A stretch of DNA of 64,000 bases from Subsaxibacter sp. CAU 1640. Its GTDB lineage: Bacteria > Bacteroidota > Bacteroidia > Flavobacteriales > Flavobacteriaceae. The position numbers and the translations under genes are program-made. The first letter of the stretch is position 1; the number at the start of each line of letters is the position of its first letter. Positions 9,356 to 21,676 of this stretch are shown here, piece after piece. Location: assembly GCF_023156585.1 (NCBI RefSeq), contig NZ_JALNMI010000003.1:248001-312000 (forward strand), read 5' to 3'. The notes below the pieces were generated by a model, which made no database searches, was not told the origin of the DNA, and worked only from the letters and a program-made list of their open reading frames with translations.

Positions 9356-10474
9356 ATGAAATTTATAGTATCAAGTACGTATTTATTAAAGCAATTACAA
9401 GTTCTTGGTGGTGTCATCAACAATTCTAACACACTACCTATTTTAGATAATTTTTTGTTTGAATTAAAAGATTCAAAATTAACTGTGTCTGCAAGCGATT
9501 TGGAAACTACTATGTCTTCAGTTGTAGATGTAGAGAGCGATACAGAAGGAAGCATTGCTTTGCCAGCACGTTTGTTGCTCGATACCCTAAAAACATTTCC
9601 GGAGCAACCCTTGACGTTTGTGGTTGAAGACAACCATACTGTTGAAATCAGCTCCAATCACGGAAAATATGCGTTGGCTTATGCAGATGCCAATGAGTTT
9701 CCTAAAGCTGTATCATTGGAAGACCCTAGCACAACTACTATTGCTGGTGATATTTTGGCAACTGCTATCAGTAAAACTATTTTTGCTGCAGGCAATGATG
9801 ATTTACGTCCTGTGATGAGTGGTGTCTATTTTCAATTTTCTACAGAAGGATTGATTTTTGTTGCAACTGATGCTCACAAATTAGTGAAATATGCACGAGA
9901 AGATGTGAAAGCCAATCAAACAGCGCAATTCATTATGCCTAAAAAGCCTTTGAATCTTTTAAAAGGGATCTTGGCTGGAAGCGATGAGCCTGTAACTATT
10001 GAATACAATGACAACAATGCCAAATTCACTTTTGAGAATTCTGTGTTGGTTTGCCGATTGATTGATGGGAAGTATCCTAATTATGAAGCTGTTATTCCGA
10101 AAGAGAATCCGAATAAATTGGTTATCGACAGAACACAGTTTTTAAACTCTGTACGTCGTGTGAGCATTTTCTCCAATAAAACAACGCATCAAATACGTTT
10201 GAAAATTGCTGGAGCAGAATTGAATATTTCTGCTGAAGATATTGACTACTCAAACAAAGCTGAAGAGCGTTTGACCTGCGATTATCAAGGTGATGATATG
10301 CAGATAGGTTTCAACTCGCGTTTCTTGACAGAAATGCTTACCAATCTTAATGCTGACGACGTGCAGCTTGAAATGAGCTTGCCCAACAGAGCTGGTATTT
10401 TGACACCAACCGACGGATTGGACGAAGGTGAGAAAGTCACGATGTTGGTAATGCCTGTGATGCTCAACAACTAA
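9356..10474 (+). CDS. dnaN: DNA polymerase III beta sliding clamp
   Basis: At 372 residues this is the normal length for the three-domain sliding clamp that encircles DNA and tethers polymerase III. Visible family segments are GGVINNSNTLPILDNFLFEL (N-terminal domain), RPVMSGVYFQFSTEGLIFVATDAHKLVKY (domain 2; D-A-H-K/R-L signature), DGKYPNYEAVIP, and the C-terminal MLVMPVMLNN, which matches the M-P-M-R/L end that forms part of the protein-binding pocket. It is alone between gldG and a strong terminator; dnaA and oriC are not seen nearby. Confidence 0.97.
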   Translation: MKFIVSSTYLLKQLQVLGGVINNSNTLPILDNFLFELKDSKLTVSASDLETTMSSVVDVESDTEGSIALPARLLLDTLKTFPEQPLTFVVEDNHTVEISSNHGKYALAYADANEFPKAVSLEDPSTTTIAGDILATAISKTIFAAGNDDLRPVMSGVYFQFSTEGLIFVATDAHKLVKYAREDVKANQTAQFIMPKKPLNLLKGILAGSDEPVTIEYNDNNAKFTFENSVLVCRLIDGKYPNYEAVIPKENPNKLVIDRTQFLNSVRRVSIFSNKTTHQIRLKIAGAELNISAEDIDYSNKAEERLTCDYQGDDMQIGFNSRFLTEMLTNLNADDVQLEMSLPNRAGILTPTDGLDEGEKVTMLVMPVMLNN

Positions 10475-10500
10475 AAAATTTAAAAATCAATTGAATATAA

Positions 10501-10532
10501 AAACGCCCGCAAATACTTGCGGGCGTTTTTCC
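10501..10532 (+). terminator. Strong rho-independent terminator after dnaN
   Basis: A perfect 12-bp stem, AAACGCCCGCAA / TTGCGGGCGTTT, has a 4-nt loop and is followed by Ts. Being flanked by A-rich and T-rich runs, it can also stop leftward transcription of the DUF4870 gene ending at 10558. Confidence 0.92.
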
Positions 10533-10557
10533 TTTATCCTATTTAAAACTAAAACCA

Positions 10558-10896
10558 CTAACTAATAAAACTAAAAGATAAAGGATATGTTGGTGTTTCG
10601 CCATTGCTCGCTTTAACGGCATTGATGATAGGCCATACAACGGCTACAATGCCTAATATGATGAATCCTAATATGCCGAGTCCAAAAAGTAAAATCAATG
10701 GAAAGCAAATGATGAAATATACGATAAGACTCAACTGAAAATTGATAATGTTCTTACCGTGTGTATCCATTTGGTACACTCGCTCCTTTTGGGTAGCCCA
10801 AATAATAAGCGGTACCAATAAACTTCCAAAGCCTGTAACCAAAGTTATTAATTGGCTTAAGTGCGTAATAACGATTAATTGTCTGTCTTCTCTCAT
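10558..10896 (-). CDS. DUF4870 small membrane protein
   Basis: This 112-residue inner-membrane protein has three hydrophobic segments. The features fit DUF4870: an N-terminal helix HLSQLITLVTGFGSLLVPLI, the loop WATQKERVYQMDTHGKNIINFQLS, and a final GIVAVVWPIINAVKASNGE. The central 'H/D-x-x-G-K-x-x-x-N-F/W-Q' loop is diagnostic. The function of the family is unknown. It is convergent with dnaN and shares the bidirectional terminator. Confidence 0.87.
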   Translation of the reverse strand: MREDRQLIVITHLSQLITLVTGFGSLLVPLIIWATQKERVYQMDTHGKNIINFQLSLIVYFIICFPLILLFGLGILGFIILGIVAVVWPIINAVKASNGETPTYPLSFSFIS

Positions 10897-13216: not shown

Positions 13217-14299
13217 TTAAAGGTTATCAACATAAAATCCGTTAGGAATAAGCTGCGTTCCGAACTGACGGATAAAATCGCCAGTGGTACTATAGATAAA
13301 AGCTGCACCATTAGAGACATAGTCTTTGGCATCGGCTAGGTAAATGGTGCCATCGTGTACCTTAAACCCGTATAGCGTGACAAGTCCGTCAGCACCTGGC
13401 TGAATGAACGCTGTGGTTGGCAAGGTCGTGTCGGTAATGCCCATGGCATACACATTGCCATTCAATGTATAATAGAGTGTACCATTATCGATTTCCAGAT
13501 TGCCAGGATGTTCACCAGCTGCGAAGTCGGTAGTAGTGGTCACCGCGTTTGTATTAAGGTTAATGGTTTGCAGTTTGCCAAGCGTTTCATCGCCTGTCCA
13601 ATCTGGTTTTCCAGAACTAATGACATAGAGTGTGCCATTGTGCGCTACCATGCCATCAGGTACATCACCCACGGGAATCGTGGTGGTAAGGCTGGATGTC
13701 GCTGTATTGATGACGCTTACGGTATTGCCGTGACCGTAACCACCCTTGTGCGCCACGTAAAGTGTACCGTTATGTATCAGTAGTTTTTCTGGACCTTCCG
13801 CAACGGCGATGGTGCTCTCTACTGTATGGTTGGCAAGGTTCAACACCGCAATATAATCATCAGCCGTGTCGAACGGGTCGCCCCAGTTGGATATAAACGC
13901 CTTGTCTCCGTTAAAGACCATATATCTTGGGTTCAAGATTTGATTAGTGATTGTCGTGATATGTTCGAACGAATAACGGTCTACCACCTCAATACTGCTG
14001 GAGTTGCTCACAACAATGTAAGCTTCCTCATCGTGAAATGCCATACTCTGTGCCACATCGCCAAGGCCTGAACCATTGACCGCAAAGAATATGTTATGAT
14101 AAGATTCTTCATCACTATCTACAAAAGATACCGAGGCATTATTGCCGTTAAAACTGCCTTCATTGAGAATAAATAGCCCTTGGTCATAGGTTCCTAAAGG
14201 TTCTTGAGGTGCATCATCCCTATCGTCACTGGTACAGGACTGGAATAGTGTTGCAATGGCTATTGCCACAAGGGTTGCGTAATGGGTGTGTTTCATCAT
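13217..14299 (-). CDS. Surface beta-propeller lipoprotein, BtuG-like/DUF5074 (YncE-like repeats)
   Basis: This 360-residue lipoprotein has its lipobox ending FQSC (Cys22), followed at once by TSDDRDD. Such an acidic stretch is a Bacteroidota surface-export signal, so it likely sits on the cell surface. The rest is a repeated beta-propeller: units like DVAQSMAFHDEEAYIVVSNS, PEKLLIHNGTLYVAHKGGYG, VPDGMVAHNGTLYVISSGK and HPGNLEIDNGTLYYTLNG recur about every 45 residues. It lies 3 bp after a riboswitch-controlled BtuB-type receptor. In Bacteroides, BtuG is a surface propeller that captures cobalamin and hands it to BtuB; the same role is inferred here, not proven. Confidence 0.8.
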   Translation of the reverse strand: MMKHTHYATLVAIAIATLFQSCTSDDRDDAPQEPLGTYDQGLFILNEGSFNGNNASVSFVDSDEESYHNIFFAVNGSGLGDVAQSMAFHDEEAYIVVSNSSSIEVVDRYSFEHITTITNQILNPRYMVFNGDKAFISNWGDPFDTADDYIAVLNLANHTVESTIAVAEGPEKLLIHNGTLYVAHKGGYGHGNTVSVINTATSSLTTTIPVGDVPDGMVAHNGTLYVISSGKPDWTGDETLGKLQTINLNTNAVTTTTDFAAGEHPGNLEIDNGTLYYTLNGNVYAMGITDTTLPTTAFIQPGADGLVTLYGFKVHDGTIYLADAKDYVSNGAAFIYSTTGDFIRQFGTQLIPNGFYVDNL

Positions 14300-14302
14300 T
14301 GT

Positions 14303-16138
14303 TTAAAATTTAAGTTGCATATAGATATTAAAATTTCTTCCGGGCATCGGTCTGTTGAGAACGCTTTCATACGATTCGTCCCAAAGATTCAGCACCTGTG
14401 CGCCGAGTTTATAGGTATTGTCTTTTCCAAGATTGTATTCAGCCCCAAGATTGGCCACCATATAACTATCGAGAATGTGCTCTGTGGCGTGGTCTGTGGT
14501 GGTAAACACTTCGTCTGTATTCAGATATTGATAATAAGCCGTGAGTTTTTTAAACTGATAACCCACAGATGCGGTCCATTTATAAAACGGCACGTAGATG
14601 AGTTGGCGGCCCGTGTCCTTGTTTTCAGAAACCGTATAGACAAAGGTTGCCGCACCTGTAACCGTATGTTTTCCGAAAGATTTCTGAACATTAAGGATGG
14701 ACTCCACACCATAAATCTCGACGTTGTTTGTATTCTGCGGACGTGAGATACCTGAAGCGTCAGGTACCCATTGTAGCAAATTGGTCACACTGTTATAATA
14801 GCCAGTAACCGTCAAGCGATTCTGTTGCCATTGGAAAACATTTGTGAGCTCCGCTTGGTAGGAGTCTTCCGGTTGTAAGTTTGGATTGCCGAGTCCTTGC
14901 CAATACAAATCATTATAGGTAGGAATGCGAAAATTCTTTGAAGCGTTCAGTTTGAGTTGGTACCACGAATTCAATGTAGCACTCATCCCAATGGAATACA
15001 ACAACGGATTTCCGAATCGGTCATTTGTTTCTTGTCGTAGACCGATTTCATACAAGAATTTTTCCGAAAGGATATGTTTGAAATTGACAATGCCAGCCGT
15101 GAGATTCCGTGTTTCCGAAGCGATGTCAGAGCCTTTACCATCATTATGTGTATAGTTGGCACCAACCGACAACAACATTTTGTTGGTCAAAGCGTAATCC
15201 AAAGCATACTTAAGAAAAAAGCTTTCGACCTTCCCAAAGGAATAGCGTTCGCTGGCAATATTTCCGTAGAAACGATACTCCTCTGTAGTGCTTGCCACCT
15301 TTAGATTTGTATTGAATTTTTTATAGCGACCATCCCATTCCAAAAGTGCACGTGTGTTAAAATCGGTGTATTTGGTTTTGAGGGCATTTGGTGTTGGCAC
15401 CGAGAAGTTGCGACGACCATCGTAGACATTTGCCAAGACTTTAAGCGTGTCCTTCTTATTCAGTTTCGTAGCCGCACCAAAACTGACGTTTGTATTGTGA
15501 AATTGGCCGTTGACGTTATGACGGTCGGTGTCAGGGTACGGATAATCATTATCTGACGCATTTCTGGCAATGCCGATGAAACTACTGAACGTTTTTGTCG
15601 CAAACTGCGTTTGGTAATCGAGTCCGTAGGTATTGTATTCGCCATAATTTGCGAACAAGGCATTCTGCCAACCCGTTCCAAAGGAGAAATCGTTCACCAA
15701 GTTAATAGTGCCACCGATGGCACCGCTGCCGTCTGCAATGCTCGAACCGCCAGTTTGTACCTCAATGCGGTTGTAACCTCGTGTGTTGATGGTGTTAAAA
15801 TCTGTTTGTCCGGTGGTTTGCGAATTGATATTGATACCGTTCCAAAGTACAGCGGTTTGTGCAGCCGTTGTACCTCTGAAGGATGGCGACGACACCATAC
15901 CGAGGCCATTTTCCTTAAAATACACAGGACTGTTGAAGTTGAGGAAATTGGTGAGCGAAGCTTGATTTTGTTTCAAGACGCTGTCTTTGAGCACCACCAC
16001 ATTTTTAGTATAGGTGGAATCTTTAAGCTGGTATGCCACGATGTGCACTTCGCCCAAGACCGTCAAAGAATCCGTCTGTGCGTAGCTGGTAACAATGATG
16101 CCAAAGCATCCCAAAATGAAAGCACTAATCTGTCTCAT
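14303..16138 (-). CDS. btuB: BtuB-type TonB-dependent cobalamin receptor
   Basis: This 611-residue outer-membrane receptor has a signal peptide (MRQISAFILGCFGIIVTSYAQ). The plug region (about 50-150) includes PSFRGTTAAQTAVLWNGI and GSSIADGSGAIGGTINL. A 22-strand-type barrel follows, with NFRIPTYNDLYWQGLGNPNL and the C-terminal NIYMQLKF. There is no N-terminal CarboxypepD_reg domain, which fits a vitamin/siderophore receptor rather than a SusC. The cobalamin riboswitch in its leader identifies the likely ligand as B12. The ATG at 16138 is preferred over an in-frame TTG at 16168, which adds ten residues before the signal peptide. Confidence 0.88.
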   Translation of the reverse strand: MRQISAFILGCFGIIVTSYAQTDSLTVLGEVHIVAYQLKDSTYTKNVVVLKDSVLKQNQASLTNFLNFNSPVYFKENGLGMVSSPSFRGTTAAQTAVLWNGININSQTTGQTDFNTINTRGYNRIEVQTGGSSIADGSGAIGGTINLVNDFSFGTGWQNALFANYGEYNTYGLDYQTQFATKTFSSFIGIARNASDNDYPYPDTDRHNVNGQFHNTNVSFGAATKLNKKDTLKVLANVYDGRRNFSVPTPNALKTKYTDFNTRALLEWDGRYKKFNTNLKVASTTEEYRFYGNIASERYSFGKVESFFLKYALDYALTNKMLLSVGANYTHNDGKGSDIASETRNLTAGIVNFKHILSEKFLYEIGLRQETNDRFGNPLLYSIGMSATLNSWYQLKLNASKNFRIPTYNDLYWQGLGNPNLQPEDSYQAELTNVFQWQQNRLTVTGYYNSVTNLLQWVPDASGISRPQNTNNVEIYGVESILNVQKSFGKHTVTGAATFVYTVSENKDTGRQLIYVPFYKWTASVGYQFKKLTAYYQYLNTDEVFTTTDHATEHILDSYMVANLGAEYNLGKDNTYKLGAQVLNLWDESYESVLNRPMPGRNFNIYMQLKF

Positions 16139-16187
16139 AACTCCAGAGCCTTTTACCCGAAAGCCCAAATGTGTTTGTTATGCTTTT

Positions 16188-16410
16188 GGCAGGTCTCCTG
16201 GCTTGTTTAATGTTATCATACCTTCCCAGTAAAAAACCAGTGGTCATTGCAGTGGATAACATCTCAAATGAGGTGCCCAAATGTGTTGGGCATAAACTTA
16301 CAGTTGCGGGAACAGCTCAAGATTTGTGAATAAAACGAACATTAAAGTGATACTGTTTACTGACCACTGCGACTGTTCACTGAATACACGCACTTGATTC
16401 CCTTTTAATT
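16188..16410 (-). promoter_or_regulatory. Cobalamin (B12) riboswitch
   Basis: Read on the minus strand, the leader contains the ordered elements of the cobalamin riboswitch: AAAGGGAATCAAGTGCG at the 5' side (about 16389-16405), CCCGCAACTGTAAG, an internal CCACTG, ACTGGGAAGG, and the B12 box AAGCCAGGAGACCTGCC (16188-16204). It ends about 50 nt before the btuB ATG. Since the B12 box is far from the start codon and no clear T-run hairpin follows, control is probably at translation or by a weak terminator. Binding of B12 should shut off the receptor and the propeller lipoprotein. The 5' boundary is approximate. Confidence 0.92.
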
Positions 16411-16446
16411 GTTCTGATTGACATCAGATACAAACCAAATGCGGGG

Positions 16447-16454
16447 CAAAGGTA
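16447..16454 (-). promoter_or_regulatory. Candidate -7 promoter element upstream of the B12 riboswitch
   Basis: TACCTTTG on the minus strand matches TAnnTTTG. It lies about 40 bp upstream of the riboswitch 5' side, where a start site would be expected. No clear -33 TTG is seen at the usual distance. Confidence 0.45.
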
Positions 16455-16525: not shown

Positions 16526-17941
16526 CTAATTACCATCCGAAATTCCCAAGGTATTGAAAAGACTGGCGATGGCTTGTAATTGTTTCGTTTGAATATCAAT
16601 TGCTTTAAGACTCGCCTCAATCAAGCTTTGCTCTCGTGATGCAACAAGGAAAAGCGAACTTTCTCCCAATTGAAACTTTCGTTCTTCAGCAGATACCAAA
16701 GTTCGGTAATCTTCTACAACGTTGGTTGCCAGTAGTGTTTGACTTTCTAGAGACGCAATCTCGGCATCAATCTGCTCAAGTTTATTTCTTAAACTCAATC
16801 TTGTGGTCGCCAAATCCCAATTGGCATCCTGAAGTTTGATGTTTGCCAACTTAAGATCGCCACGTTCTTTCCTCAAAAACAGTGGAATATAGATATTTAA
16901 TGAGGATTTATAATTGGCCGTGTTGAAGGTATCCAATTGGTCTACATCTTGAGAGAGAAAATTATACTGCAAATCAATTTTAGGCAACAGCTTGTTTTTA
17001 TACAGAAACCTATCGACTTCCAAACTTTGGATTTTGGCATCAAGGCTGTTCAGTTTTGGGTGATTTTCCAAATTGCTTTCTACCATTTCGAGTGTTTCGA
17101 TAGACAATGAATTCTGCAAAGACAGACTACTCGGAAGTTCTGGCACGATATTGTCTTCTAGTATAAGCGGAACGTCATTCAACCACAAATAATTACTAAC
17201 ATTCAAAGCCGTTTTTCTTCTTTTTAAGGTTGCAGCCTCTAGGCTTAACTGTCTATTTTGATAGGTGATTCTTGCCTCTATACTATCTATTGCAGCTTTT
17301 TCACCTTCCTCAACACTACGTTTTGTACCCTCAAAACGAACCAACGCATTTTCTAAAAACTGTTTATATAGTTGCTCTTGATTATAGGCTTCGACCCATT
17401 GAAAATAAGCCAAACTCGCTTGATACAGCACATCATTCACCAGCAAATTACGTTCTGCCTGTGTTTGATTTACGAAAAAACGTGCTTTCTTTAAAGTTGC
17501 CATACGCTCATTCATAAAGAGTCCTTGCGCCAAAGATAATGACACACCAGCGCTGTAAAGTCCATCGGGCGGCACAGTTAGGCTAGGGTCTAGATAAGCA
17601 CCAGTATTTTCTTCAAAGGTTCCCTTAAACTCAATACCATACCAAGTAGGTATCTTAAAAGTGGTGTTTAAGAGGTCATAATATTCCGTGTTTTTGAATT
17701 TTTTACGACTGTAATCAACCTCAACTTTAGGGTCAAAACCACCTCTAGCCCTTAACAGAGTAGCTTCACCTTCAGAAAGACGCAGGTTTGCCTGTTTCAC
17801 CAGCGGATGGTGCTGCTTTACATAGCCCAGATACTCCTCAAAGGTCATAATGCTATCCTGTAAGCTATTGGTTTGACCTTTGACGCAATGTGCATAGGTC
17901 AAAAACAACCATATAATGATATTTGTATAGAATCTTACCAT
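16526..17941 (-). CDS. TolC-family outer-membrane efflux channel
   Basis: This 471-residue protein has a signal peptide (ending HCVKGQ) and the long amphipathic helices of outer-membrane factor proteins. Two OEP repeats are seen: HPLVKQANLRLSEGEATLLRARGGFDPKV, broken by barrel strands, and a second starting near ENHPKLNSLDAKIQSLEVDRFLYKN. It should form the trimeric outer-membrane duct for the export system encoded just upstream. Its start abuts the stop of the HlyD gene, and it is the last gene of the tetR-ABC-HlyD-TolC operon. Confidence 0.9.
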   Translation of the reverse strand: MVRFYTNIIIWLFLTYAHCVKGQTNSLQDSIMTFEEYLGYVKQHHPLVKQANLRLSEGEATLLRARGGFDPKVEVDYSRKKFKNTEYYDLLNTTFKIPTWYGIEFKGTFEENTGAYLDPSLTVPPDGLYSAGVSLSLAQGLFMNERMATLKKARFFVNQTQAERNLLVNDVLYQASLAYFQWVEAYNQEQLYKQFLENALVRFEGTKRSVEEGEKAAIDSIEARITYQNRQLSLEAATLKRRKTALNVSNYLWLNDVPLILEDNIVPELPSSLSLQNSLSIETLEMVESNLENHPKLNSLDAKIQSLEVDRFLYKNKLLPKIDLQYNFLSQDVDQLDTFNTANYKSSLNIYIPLFLRKERGDLKLANIKLQDANWDLATTRLSLRNKLEQIDAEIASLESQTLLATNVVEDYRTLVSAEERKFQLGESSLFLVASREQSLIEASLKAIDIQTKQLQAIASLFNTLGISDGN

Positions 17942-19297
17942 TTATTTCTTCTCTGTTGTAGTGGTACCCGTATTCTCCGGTGCATAATAATTAGGCGGAA
18001 ACCCGTTAAGTTGTCGCCATATCTCATAAAAAATAGGCACATCGTTGAGCAATGCCATTGTGAAGGCACCACCACCTACCCTCACGTTCTGCGGCCAAGG
18101 CTCGGCTTCTGGGTCTGGAGCAATCAAGACCCTAAACTTTCCGTTATTGCTGATAAAGGTCTCAACGGCCACAATTTTTCCTCCAAACGTTCCAAATGAA
18201 GAGTTGGGCCAACCGCTGAACACGACAGATGGCCAACCATCAAACTGAATACGCACTTTTTCGCCAACGTGCATCAATGGCAAGTCTATAGGTGACACGT
18301 ATGTCTCTACCGCCAATTCATAGTCAGACGGCATAATATTCACCAAACGCTCCCCTTCCTTAATGGTTTCACCGATACCAGCTTTGATGGCCTTATTGAT
18401 ATAACCATTTTGTGGGGCCAAAATATAATTCATACTACTACGCATTTTGTAGTTTGTAGACTGATTTTCCAATTTTTGAACTTGTGCCATTGCTTCAAAC
18501 TGACTTGATTCCGCCGTATATCTATCACTACTTGCCTTGGCAATTTTATCGGCATATTCGGCACTCAACCTGCTTATTTCAACCTGTGCATTAATGACAT
18601 CGTTCTGACTGGCCAAATATTTGTTTTCTTGCGAAATGAGTTTGGCTTCGGTTTCTTGAAGTTTAAGTCGTTTCTCCTCAACGTCGGTCACCGCTTTAAG
18701 ACCTTCTTCTTGAAGCGTTTGTGTTCTATTAAATTGACGTTCTGCAATCGCTTTATTGGTTTTTGCAGCTTCCAAATCGATACTGTCGCTCTTCGTTTTT
18801 AAGCGAGCTTGCCTCAATTTATTTTCTGCCTGTTGAAGTTTCAATACACGTTCTCTATCCAAGGCTGCAATTTGACTATTCAGCGCATTTATTTTACCAG
18901 AATATGATTCTACTGAACGAGTTTTTGCATCACGTTGTGCCACTGTACGGTCAACCAATAACGGGTCTTGGTACTCGGTTTTGATTTCAGAAATGTACAG
19001 GATGGTATCACCTTTTTTAACATAATCGCCTTCCCTCACGTACCATTTTTCAACTCGACCAGGAATTTGCGATTGTATAGTTTGCGGTCTTTGGTCTAAA
19101 GATAACGTAGTTACATAACCACGACCAGACACGTTTTGCGTCCAAGGCAAGATTAGAATTATAAGCACCAGAATACCGAAACCGAAGATAAATCGGTTAA
19201 ATATCTTATAATGTTTGTTCTTAAAAGCCTTTGGAAATGATTTAAAATCACCCAAAGAGACTTTTTTGTTAAGTTGATTATGGGAAATATTAAGCAT
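17942..19297 (-). CDS. HlyD-family membrane fusion (periplasmic adaptor) protein
   Basis: This 451-residue adaptor has one N-terminal membrane helix (FIFGFGILVLIILILPW), a lipoyl-like half motif IPGRVEKWYVREGDYVKKGD, and a long coiled coil (about 130-280, e.g. LKLQQAENKLRQARLKTKSD). A second lipoyl half (ILAPQNGYINKAIKAGIGET) and a beta-barrel part follow. This is the type I secretion/MFP layout linking an inner-membrane ABC protein to TolC. It overlaps the ABC gene by 8 bp. The cargo is unknown. Confidence 0.92.
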   Translation of the reverse strand: MLNISHNQLNKKVSLGDFKSFPKAFKNKHYKIFNRFIFGFGILVLIILILPWTQNVSGRGYVTTLSLDQRPQTIQSQIPGRVEKWYVREGDYVKKGDTILYISEIKTEYQDPLLVDRTVAQRDAKTRSVESYSGKINALNSQIAALDRERVLKLQQAENKLRQARLKTKSDSIDLEAAKTNKAIAERQFNRTQTLQEEGLKAVTDVEEKRLKLQETEAKLISQENKYLASQNDVINAQVEISRLSAEYADKIAKASSDRYTAESSQFEAMAQVQKLENQSTNYKMRSSMNYILAPQNGYINKAIKAGIGETIKEGERLVNIMPSDYELAVETYVSPIDLPLMHVGEKVRIQFDGWPSVVFSGWPNSSFGTFGGKIVAVETFISNNGKFRVLIAPDPEAEPWPQNVRVGGGAFTMALLNDVPIFYEIWRQLNGFPPNYYAPENTGTTTTEKK

Positions 19298-20957
19298 TTG
19301 GCATATTTGTTAAATATCCGTTATTCAATTTCAATATTTTGCTGCATCGCTGTTTCCACAAATGATTTCTCGACGCCACAATAATGGTCCACGGATGCTT
19401 TGAATCTGTAAGATAAGCCACAATTTTCTCGGCATCTTGAGTTTCAAAATTTTCTAAAGGATCTTTCAACAGCAACAATCGAGGTCTATGCACAATGGCA
19501 CGCGCAATAACAATACGCTTTGAAACTGTATATGGTATTTTCTGTCCTTCGGAATGAAGAATGGTGTTGAGCCCATTGGGTTGTTTTTTTATAAAAGGTA
19601 ATAAGCCAAGACTCTCTACCGTTTCATTGATAACATCCTGCGAAATCGATGTGTCACCCAAAGTGATGTTCTCTAGAATACTACCTTCAAATGGCGATTG
19701 TTCTGGCAATACTTGCCCTACGTGACAGCGATATTTGTTAGGCCAAATACCTTTTATGGAATTATTGTTGATATAAAGCGAGCCTCCACTTGGAGATTCA
19801 AGTCCAGAAAGCAATTTTAGTAATGTTGTTTTGCCAGAGCCAGAAGGACCATCCAGGAGTACACATTCTTTTTTATCAATAGAAAAACTGATGTCTTTTA
19901 AAATTGCAAAACCATCTCTAGTGGTAAACTCGATGTTCTCCAATTCAATCTTCAAAATATCTTTAGTTTCAAAAGGATTGATGCCCTCTTGTGCTTCCAA
20001 TTCCTTGTCAACAACCTGACCCAATTTTTCTAACGAGGTGAGTACATCATACACTGTTTCCAAACCAGTAATCAATTTTTCAACGGAATTGATAATCAAT
20101 AGAATGATGATTTCTGCGGCGACAAATTGTCCAATATTCATTTGCTGATTCAATACCAACAAACCACCAATAACCAAAAGTCCAGCAGTTACAAGCACTT
20201 TGAAGCCTATCATTTGAATAAACTGAAGCAACAGCACCCTAAAGTGTCCCTCGCGAGCATCGAGATAATCGGCAGTTAGCTCATCATTTTTATGCATAGC
20301 CAATTGGGTTTTGCCAGATAATTTGAAACTTTCCAGTGATCGCGCCACTTCCTGTAGCCAATGTGCCACTTTATATTTCTTCTGTGATTCCTCGAGACTT
20401 GTATTCAAACCTTTTTTGGCAGTGAAGCGGTAAACTATATATATCAACAGCACCAATAGCATTCCGTAAAGGATGAAAAAGGGATGGTAAAAGGATAGCA
20501 GCACTAGACCAAATACAATCTGTAAAATGGCCGCAGGAAAATCAATCAGGATTTTTGACAACCCTTTTTGGACCGTTAAGGTATCAAAAAAACGATTTGC
20601 CAATTCTGGAGGATAATAATCGTAAAGTTCACTCGATTTGATTTTAGGAAATCGATAAGCAAACTCGAATGAGGAACGTGTGAAAATCTTCTGCTGTACA
20701 TTCTCAAGAATACGCACTTGCATAATCTGAAGACCACCCTGAAACACCACACCTAGCGTCACTAAAATTACCAATACAATCCATGATGTTGACACTTCAG
20801 CACCTTGCAAAAGATTGATAATGGCCTGAATACCTAAAGGAAGTGATAATGCCACAAGTCCTGCGAAAATCGCATAATAAATAATTTGTCTAATATCTCG
20901 CTTGTCGAGTTGCAATAACCCGATGAAGCGTTGTACTGGTGTCATTTTTTCCTTCAT
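19290..20957 (-). CDS. HlyB-like ABC exporter with degenerate nucleotide-binding domain
   Basis: This 555-residue fused permease-ATPase has a transmembrane domain (about 25-300) and an ATPase domain (about 335-555), with no C39 peptidase domain. Walker A is intact (GPSGSGKT, 370-377). The other ATPase motifs are changed: the LSGGQ position reads IPYTV (474-478), Walker B reads LLLLKDP (494-500) instead of LLLLDEP, the switch histidine is Ser529 (VASR), and the Q-loop Gln appears replaced (VLPEQSPF). The following RIVIARAI is normal, so the frame is right and this is not a sequencing slip. It may bind ATP but hydrolyse it poorly, or use another partner. It is preceded by tetR with a 4-bp overlap. 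Confidence 0.88.
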   Translation of the reverse strand: MKEKMTPVQRFIGLLQLDKRDIRQIIYYAIFAGLVALSLPLGIQAIINLLQGAEVSTSWIVLVILVTLGVVFQGGLQIMQVRILENVQQKIFTRSSFEFAYRFPKIKSSELYDYYPPELANRFFDTLTVQKGLSKILIDFPAAILQIVFGLVLLSFYHPFFILYGMLLVLLIYIVYRFTAKKGLNTSLEESQKKYKVAHWLQEVARSLESFKLSGKTQLAMHKNDELTADYLDAREGHFRVLLLQFIQMIGFKVLVTAGLLVIGGLLVLNQQMNIGQFVAAEIIILLIINSVEKLITGLETVYDVLTSLEKLGQVVDKELEAQEGINPFETKDILKIELENIEFTTRDGFAILKDISFSIDKKECVLLDGPSGSGKTTLLKLLSGLESPSGGSLYINNNSIKGIWPNKYRCHVGQVLPEQSPFEGSILENITLGDTSISQDVINETVESLGLLPFIKKQPNGLNTILHSEGQKIPYTVSKRIVIARAIVHRPRLLLLKDPLENFETQDAEKIVAYLTDSKHPWTIIVASRNHLWKQRCSKILKLNNGYLTNMPNA

Positions 20958-21637
20958 TGGCTAGTGACATTAAGGGTTTGAAGCACCAAATTTTTACAGA
21001 ATTCACTCGGTTCAACTGACTCATTACAATCAGTGATGGTATGGAAATGTTTTTTAAGAAAATGCTGGTGCAATGCACTTTCAACAACAGTGCTTGCCAG
21101 AGAAGCAGGAAATGGATATTCTGGTCTTACGGCTAGGATTGCTTCTTTTAATCTGGTGATTACCCTTTTATAGATTGCGAAAAAGCCATCCTTGTTATCA
21201 TCGTCGACCTCCTTGGTAAGAAATGATTTTGAATATTCATTTATCATAATGTTAAACAGTCTACCTTCATCGATATGGGTAAAGCTGTCGTCGGCCTGAA
21301 TAGTCTGGGATACAATAGAAATGATGGTTTCCAGTTTTTTTTCAGCATTAGAAATGCTGTAAGTATGCAGTACCACTTGGTAATCTATCCAGGCCCAATA
21401 CCACGATGTCAAATAAATCAAAAGTTTGTGCTTATTTTCAAAATATCGATATACTGACGCTTCGGTAGAGTTTATTTTATCACTTAATTTTTTGAAGGTG
21501 AAAGATTCAAATCCTATTTCATCCATTAAAAGGATACTGTTTTCCACTATACGTTTTCCCAGTTCTGAAGATTCAGGATCCTTTATATAGAGCTTGTCAT
21601 TGACTCTAATCTGAAAATTTTGAAATAATTCTTGCAT
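20954..21637 (-). CDS. TetR/AcrR-family regulator of the export operon
   Basis: This 227-residue regulator has an N-terminal HTH (GFESFTFKKLSDKINSTEAS followed by VYRYFENKHKLLIYL), the standard TetR DNA-binding pattern, and a helical ligand domain. The ATG at 21637 is chosen; the longer reading from TTG 21658 would begin inside the promoter -7 box. It is the first gene of the operon with the ABC, HlyD and TolC genes, which suggests autoregulation and control of export. The C-terminal domain has no recognisable ligand family. Confidence 0.88.
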   Translation of the reverse strand: MQELFQNFQIRVNDKLYIKDPESSELGKRIVENSILLMDEIGFESFTFKKLSDKINSTEASVYRYFENKHKLLIYLTSWYWAWIDYQVVLHTYSISNAEKKLETIISIVSQTIQADDSFTHIDEGRLFNIMINEYSKSFLTKEVDDDNKDGFFAIYKRVITRLKEAILAVRPEYPFPASLASTVVESALHQHFLKKHFHTITDCNESVEPSEFCKNLVLQTLNVTSQ

Positions 21638-21655
21638 CGAACATACATTTGCACA

Positions 21656-21676
21656 CAAATATAATAGTAATACTAT
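21656..21676 (-). promoter_or_regulatory. Promoter -7 element with adjacent palindromic operator of the tetR operon
   Basis: TATATTTG on the minus strand (21656-21663) is a TAnnTTTG element. Directly upstream of it lies the palindrome ATAGTAATACTAT (21664-21676), in the spacer where a TetR dimer would block RNA polymerase. The start codon at 21637 is about 20 bp downstream. Confidence 0.6.

Follow-up and report, generated by a model that had tools for sequence, protein, structure and literature searches.

A half transporter with a degenerate ATPase domain in Subsaxibacter sp. CAU 1640, and a Bacteroidota exporter family that may have changed its source of power

Among described transporters, HlyB/HlyD/TolC and PCAT1 come closest to the locus considered here, a four-gene operon in a 64,000-nucleotide stretch of the genome of Subsaxibacter sp. 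CAU 1640 (contig NZ_JALNMI010000003.1, positions 248,001 to 312,000; "the window" hereafter denotes this whole stretch). The operon encodes an ATP-binding cassette (ABC) exporter-like protein that has their fold (a Foldseek search against the PDB placed PCAT1 at rank 1 and HlyB/D at rank 7) and lies among HlyD and TolC genes, but differs from them by the loss of its ATPase motifs. Two further groups of exporters are instructive. TM287/288, TmrAB, TAP and CFTR are described in a review (PMC7756269) as having lost catalytic residues while retaining nucleotide-binding motifs, a combination also seen in the window protein. Engineered LmrA-MD and MsbA-MD, which lack the nucleotide-binding domain (NBD), transport on ion gradients, and Glu314 in transmembrane helix 6 (TM6) of LmrA is needed for proton-gradient dependence, according to three reports (PMC2704374, PMC6155054, PMC4979069). 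These constructs are type I exporter membrane domains without an NBD, as are certain relatives of the window protein described below; yet they were made in the laboratory by truncating working ABC pumps and are not tripartite, whereas the forms found here are natural, conserved and tied to HlyD and TolC.

The window protein is the product of a single unbroken open reading frame (ORF) of 555 codons, in which Pfam recognizes both exporter domains (ABC_membrane, 41 bits; ABC_tran, 70.8 bits). Motif positions were read from an alignment with 14 canonical exporters of related genomes, among which the window's own genome contributed two. An earlier, sequence-only reading of this DNA had held that the gene is intact, that Walker A is kept, that LSGGQ has become IPYTV, that Walker B reads LLLKDP and that Pro418 appears to stand in place of the Q-loop Gln, and the alignment agrees on each point. 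It also agrees that the switch His is gone, although not that its place is taken by Ser529: the canonical His aligns with Arg530, and Ser529 with the residue before it. The Walker B Asp, invariant in the 14 canonical proteins, corresponds to Lys498, and the residue that follows, Glu in 13 of the 14, is Asp499.

These losses are shared by an entire clade. Searches of 60 related genomes yielded 28 orthologues, the window's own included; among the matches listed, identity falls from 38% in these to at most 32% in other ABC proteins, and the score from 412 to 118 bits. A scan of named genomes supplied 80 more, the top-scoring ones among at least 555 confirmed stretches, at 60-76% identity (from Marinirhabdus, Dokdonia, Aquimarina, Olleya, Maribacter, Zobellia, Kordia, Psychroserpens and others). 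The resulting 108 proteins represent 107 groups at 98.5% identity, and the 107 besides the window protein are 38-77% identical to it. The features expected of an ABC exporter, namely LSGGQ, the Walker B Asp, the Q-loop Gln and the switch His, are lacking in the window protein and throughout the set; in the alignment the Q-loop Gln, the C-loop S..G, the Walker B Asp and the switch His each occur in 0 of 108. The Walker A P-loop, on the other hand, is present in 104 and its Lys in 105, and the A-loop residue is aromatic in 102 of 107 clade members. Walker A stands alone in 92 proteins and together with Glu499 in 12; one has Glu499 alone and three have neither. The former C-loop now bears a different conserved pattern (residue 475 is P in 69, S in 37 and A in 2; residue 477 is T in 81 of 108), the Walker B Asp position is occupied by K in 77, E in 24, N in 5, and I and R in one each, and residue 499 is acidic in 102 of 107. 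Because identical positions have been lost in all 108 aligned proteins, chance or local decay can be excluded; recent decay in one strain, which the sequence-only reading had expected to show itself through close relatives with canonical motifs, is ruled out, no such relatives being found among the 107 other orthologues, all of which share the losses.

The two domains of these proteins have also changed at markedly different rates. Pairwise comparison of 107 proteins (5671 pairs; one orthologue that has lost its P-loop, L024, was left out) gave mean identities of 0.755 for the membrane domain and 0.481 for the NBD, the NBD being lower in every one of the 5671 pairs, with a divergence ratio of 2.12. 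In two groups of canonical exporters used as controls the corresponding means were 0.721 and 0.704 (6 pairs, ratio 1.06) and 0.642 and 0.650 (28 pairs, ratio 0.98), and one additional canonical pair gave 0.193 and 0.460. Better conservation of the membrane domain than of the ATPase domain is seen here and is absent in both control groups. It extends to a wider set of 152 rows assigned to the P-loop stage (described below), in which the NBD was lower in 11381 of 11476 pairs (ratio 1.67). Median ratios of nonsynonymous to synonymous substitution (dN/dS) were 0.025 for the membrane domain and 0.068 for the NBD, which was higher in all 13 pairs; these were the usable ones, with synonymous distances in both domains, of 34 close pairs, and many of their distances lie near or past saturation. 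The values nevertheless indicate that the degenerate NBD is under purifying selection and does not drift freely. The earlier surmise that the gene is kept for use is upheld by this NBD median, by conservation across the clade and by the recurrence of the operon.

Viewed more broadly, family members occur in 76 of 296 genomes sampled across the phylum and 196 of 395 across the class (E 1e-60 or better; the two samples overlap). An alignment of 201 family rows with the 14 canonical rows, in which group labels were set by eye and then counted, arranges the living members as an apparent decay series, from near-complete motifs through the P-loop only and no motif to no ATPase domain. Eighteen distant members keep Walker A (18), the Walker B DE pair (18), the switch His (16) and the C-loop S..G (8), and in none is the Q-loop Gln found; four further rows have lost more residues than these. 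At the P-loop stage stand 152 rows, in 122 of which Walker A is the sole motif, and by its residues the window protein belongs to this "P-loop only" stage. Ten rows have an NBD without a P-loop and 17 have no NBD, nine consisting of the membrane domain only and eight being fused to HlyD. As read from living members, this suggests an order of loss in which the Q-loop and C-loop went first, then the His and Walker B, then the P-loop and at last the domain.

Rows were curated as follows. Dropped were a partial row (L030), four that represent the same genes as others (L111, L114, L133 and L137, for L001, L005, L027 and L028), the duplicates L227, L245 and L246 (of L182, L190 and L186), nine partial, edge or broken rows (L181, L184, L187, L188, L195, L196, L200, L204, L209) and a fragment (L244); L189, L192, L197, L199, L201-L203, L205, L207, L208 and L210 were taken from longer loci. 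L097 and L117, identical over the compared part, were both kept among the 201, and the partial L145 was excluded from the tree and from the basal identity count.

Several members of the family are individually distinctive. In L150-L154, L161-L162, L164-L179 and L182 the membrane domain is preceded by an N-terminal extension, roughly 135-255 residues long; Pfam gave no match on it in L150, L164 and L227, and by resemblance it may be what is left of the peptidase-like domain that ABC proteins of type I secretion carry. One genome (G107) has two full-length copies, L152 and L153, both so extended. A single genus code (g224) includes the P-loop-less NBD form in three genomes (L182, L183, L185) and the HlyD-fused form in another (L214), while full-length and membrane-only forms are both present in each of the codes g73, g75 and g77. 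The f101 group (L190, L191, L194, L198) has an intact P-loop and a V-D-D Walker B, without the Q-loop Gln or switch His; two of its four members show a partial LSG one column off, and L190 and L191 stand separate from the rest in the tree.

The forms without an ATPase domain occur in relatives of the window protein and not in the window itself. The nine membrane-only ORFs (L141-L144, L219-L223; family codes f17, f23 and f24) encode 332-339 residues by the chosen starts, and in all nine loci HlyD and then outer membrane efflux protein (OEP) genes follow downstream. The HlyD start overlaps the membrane-only stop by 8 nt in seven loci, the same overlap as at the window's own ABC/HlyD junction, where an NBD is present, and lies 34 and 66 nt beyond it in the other two, which leaves no room for an NBD. 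In the eight HlyD fusions (L211-L218; f66, f74, f88, f91, f99, f100; 749-781 residues) the membrane domain runs straight into HlyD; an OEP gene comes next in all eight and a TetR gene is adjacent in six. At E 0.01 Pfam reported ABC_tran in none of the eight fusions and in none of the five membrane-only proteins scanned, of the nine. HlyD_3 was above cut-off in all eight fusions, and ABC_membrane reached cut-off in all five membrane-only proteins and in two of the eight fusions, going unreported in L211; since it so rarely does so in the fusions, their membrane domain was assigned by the family profile (216.9-267.6 bits). Chance or frameshift as the source of these forms is ruled out by their occurrence in 17 genomes and nine family codes, with clean ends adjoining or fused with HlyD. 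Rows L181, L184 and L187, which end at contig edges or contain an internal stop, were not counted among them. The figure of 17 of 196 is a lower bound, 38 genomes having been re-searched and eight g226 genomes with similar weak scores left out; a phylum search with the membrane-only alignment matched 83 of 395 genomes at E 1e-70, and the six membrane-only genomes listed were all already known.

In a tree of membrane domains (100 of the 215 rows, quick method), each NBD-less form makes one clade, with a Shimodaira-Hasegawa-like approximate likelihood ratio test (SH-aLRT) value of 99 in both cases, and the two lie in different parts of the tree. Two changes account for NBD loss, or six when P-loop loss is treated as a third state, and a single clade of both forms is rejected by the approximately unbiased (AU) test (p-AU 0.010). 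The tree and the test together favour two separate losses of the ATPase domain. The sequences show that the membrane domain and its partners have been kept while the ATPase motifs were lost, and the NBD has gone altogether in two lineages, one of them HlyD-fused.

Several residues of the membrane domain are kept throughout the family. All 201 family rows share K131, S191, K194, G264, G276 and K311; of these, K131, S191, K194 and K311 occur in none of the 14 canonical rows. A Lys or Arg at 253 is found in 194 of 201 family rows and in 0 of 14 canonical ones, and Glu282 is nearly invariant, the exceptions being Asp in L155 and Gln in L172. We considered Glu282 as the counterpart of LmrA Glu314, and spacing rules this out, the two lying 94 and 74 residues before the Walker A Lys. 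In helix 208-215, which the structure model draws at 208-214, Phe211 is invariant in the 152 P-loop-stage rows and the position is aromatic in six of the nine membrane-only rows, all nine of which carry Arg for Lys212; positions 211 and 212 are deleted in four of the eight fusions, and 215 in seven. A cytoplasmic contact at this helix is, on this pattern, clearly gone in the fusions only. The broader proposition that loss of the NBD always goes with loss of coupling helix 2 was weakened by a recount, being true of the fusions and not clearly so of the membrane-only proteins.

We consider it probable that the product of the window gene is the inner-membrane component of a three-part exporter (membrane domain, HlyD adaptor and TolC-type channel), usually accompanied by a TetR regulator, that is no longer run by its own ATP hydrolysis and would instead be driven by an ion or proton gradient. 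The ancestor would have been an ABC exporter resembling those of type I secretion, in which ATP hydrolysis by the exporter's own subunit was abandoned. In the window's clade the NBD would survive as a selected pseudo-ATPase, probably nucleotide-binding, structural or regulatory, and the gradient would act on the membrane domain, possibly via Glu282 and Lys253, in a protein that its fold leads us to treat as a homodimer. An ion gradient is rated the likeliest power source because of the analogy with LmrA-MD and MsbA-MD. The wider proposal, that a widespread natural Bacteroidota exporter family switched from an ABC pump to an ion-driven tripartite system, in which the decaying NBD of the window protein would be a living intermediate and the HlyD-fused membrane domain an end state, is put forward tentatively, at somewhat less than even chances. 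An ion-driven exporter is our first choice, ahead of a gated passive conduit and, in third place, a partner ATPase.

A passive conduit, the rival that takes up the gated channel of the sequence-only reading, would be a channel or platform joining HlyD and TolC, through which substrate moves down its gradient while ATP binding by the pseudo-NBD gates it in the manner of CFTR or SUR. Retention of Walker A and the aromatic A-loop in the window clade, with the hydrolysis residues gone, accords with such gating, and fusion to HlyD in one lineage fits a structural platform; but elsewhere the P-loop and the whole domain have been lost with the same partners kept, and CFTR and SUR retain one competent site, so that we regard this explanation as unlikely. 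The earlier suggestion that the protein binds ATP without normal turnover stands in part: it fits the P-loop and A-loop counts of the window clade, but ATP binding cannot be what defines the system, given relatives in which the P-loop or the entire domain has gone. In known exporters with a degenerate site, the heterodimer or full transporter still has a second, competent one; in the homodimer expected here the two sites would each be degenerate, and the operon encodes no second ATPase. No search was aimed at a partner in the window's own genome.

An ATPase encoded elsewhere might still dock in trans on the membrane domain, power it and so replace the degenerate domain. The first cytoplasmic loop and the basic residue at 212 that the membrane-only members conserve would suit such docking, and one of the 17 NBD-less loci, the membrane-only L220, has a separate 282-residue ABC ATPase gene nearby (10019-10867; ABC_tran, 76.8 bits), about 1.3 kb beyond its OEP gene. 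None was seen within a few kb of flank in the other 16, and the region of helix 208-215 is mostly deleted in the fusions. Best scores in an NBD-profile search of the 17 NBD-less genomes (155.7-177.8 bits) were about those of nine genomes without a detected family member (151.4-173.8), against 294.6 and 305.3 bits in two positive-control genomes with close members. The matches listed lie in frames of at least 464 residues, and no family-type NBD was found among them elsewhere in the 17 genomes, though a generic partner might serve and a divergent orphan could hide, since for G040, a divergent member, the search gave no more than 158 bits on its own NBD. The sequence-only suggestion of dimerization with another ATPase thus finds no support in the operon or in these genomes, and we judge a trans-acting ATPase less likely again than the conduit. 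Least likely, to the point of being improbable, is slow hydrolysis by the degenerate NBD through replaced residues, for instance with Asp499 as base, in an ordinary if unusual ABC exporter: the acidic residue at 499, Lys498 in 77 of 108 and purifying selection on the NBD are compatible with it, but every clade member lacks the C-loop, the Q-loop Gln, the Walker B Asp and the switch His, and whole domains are absent in relatives.

Several observations weigh against an ion-driven exporter that has dispensed with ATP hydrolysis. Ion coupling in this family is argued by analogy, and Glu282 lies about 20 residues nearer the start of TM6 than LmrA Glu314 and is not the same residue; placed at the TM6 edge, in a segment (272-282) that the model predicts with low confidence, it could have a role in binding HlyD instead. 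Sixteen of the distant members, in which Walker A, Walker B and the His all persist, may still hydrolyse ATP, and in the distant group the NBD evolves barely faster than the membrane domain (lower in 97 of 136 pairs, ratio 1.14). Purifying selection implies that the NBD retains some role in the window clade, the residues at 211 and 212 leave a cytoplasmic contact not clearly lost in the membrane-only proteins, and the ATPase gene at L220 leaves room for a partner in trans. The two-loss result, finally, is limited by a quick tree, long branches and a distant root.

The operon itself was read correctly from the sequence as a complete TetR-ABC-HlyD-TolC set, on which coordinates and Pfam agree; its four genes, all on the minus strand, overlap or abut (Table 1). 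Beside the 80 orthologues from named genomes a TetR homologue was found in 73, HlyD in 77 and OEP in 76, and none of seven other window neighbours tested recurs there. The ABC, HlyD and TolC genes that define a type I secretion gene set are together in the window, yet the protein falls far below cut-off against all of its best NCBIfam models, which include the NHLP, LssB and HlyB exporters (best type I secretion/bacteriocin model 169 bits, cut-off 853.3; HlyB model 149.4, cut-off 725.55), and Pfam reported no peptidase domain in it.

Table 1. Features of the exporter operon and of the window protein, in window coordinates (pLDDT, predicted local distance difference test).
Feature	Coordinates	Strand	Remarks
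TetR-family regulator, first gene of the operon	20954..21658	-	Pfam TetR_N
Half transporter resembling ABC exporters, 555 aa, with degenerate catalytic motifs	19290..20957	-	single intact ORF
Transmembrane domain, residues 1-325, conserved family-wide	19983..20957	-	mean identity 0.755 vs 0.481 for NBD
First cytoplasmic loop, PPELANRFFD, residues 116-125	20583..20612	-	conserved in membrane-only members, partly in HlyD fusions
Helix 208-215, matching the coupling helix 2 region in position (structure model)	20313..20336	-	
Glu282, near TM6 start	20112..20114	-	199/201 family rows, 0/14 canonical
Pseudo-ATPase (NBD), residues 336-551	19305..19952	-	Pfam ABC_tran; model pLDDT 79-94 (ten-residue blocks, to residue 550)
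Walker A, GPSGSGKT, residues 370-377, intact	19827..19850	-	
Q-loop position, Pro418	19704..19706	-	Q in 14/14 canonical
C-loop (signature) position, IPYTV, residues 474-478, in place of LSGGQ	19524..19538	-	
Walker B position, LLLLKD, residues 494-499	19461..19478	-	
Switch (H-loop) position, Arg530	19368..19370	-	H in 14/14 canonical
HlyD-type periplasmic adaptor	17942..19297	-	8-nt overlap with ABC gene
TolC-type outer membrane efflux protein (OEP)	16526..17941	-	Pfam OEP

Adjoining the exporter operon is what is likely a vitamin B12 uptake operon: a Cobalamin riboswitch (Rfam RF00174, 83.2 bits; 16171-16454, minus strand) sits directly upstream of the gene for a TonB-dependent receptor (14303-16168) and of an ORF spanning 13217-14299.

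No account of this exporter family was recognized in open full text, in a search that was weak in part and whose coverage took in neither most subscription papers nor bioRxiv preprints. To our knowledge, only engineered truncations have so far shown that an ABC exporter's membrane domain can transport in the absence of its ATPase. Nature appears to have run the NBD-removal experiment twice, with living intermediates, in a family represented in about half of the sampled class genomes, and transport without an ATPase thereby becomes testable with natural proteins. A Pfam ABC_tran match alone, moreover, is no proof of an ATPase. What these genes point to is a common Bacteroidota pump in which the ATPase part has decayed while the membrane part and its partners have been kept, and for which a different power source, or a different use, is probable.

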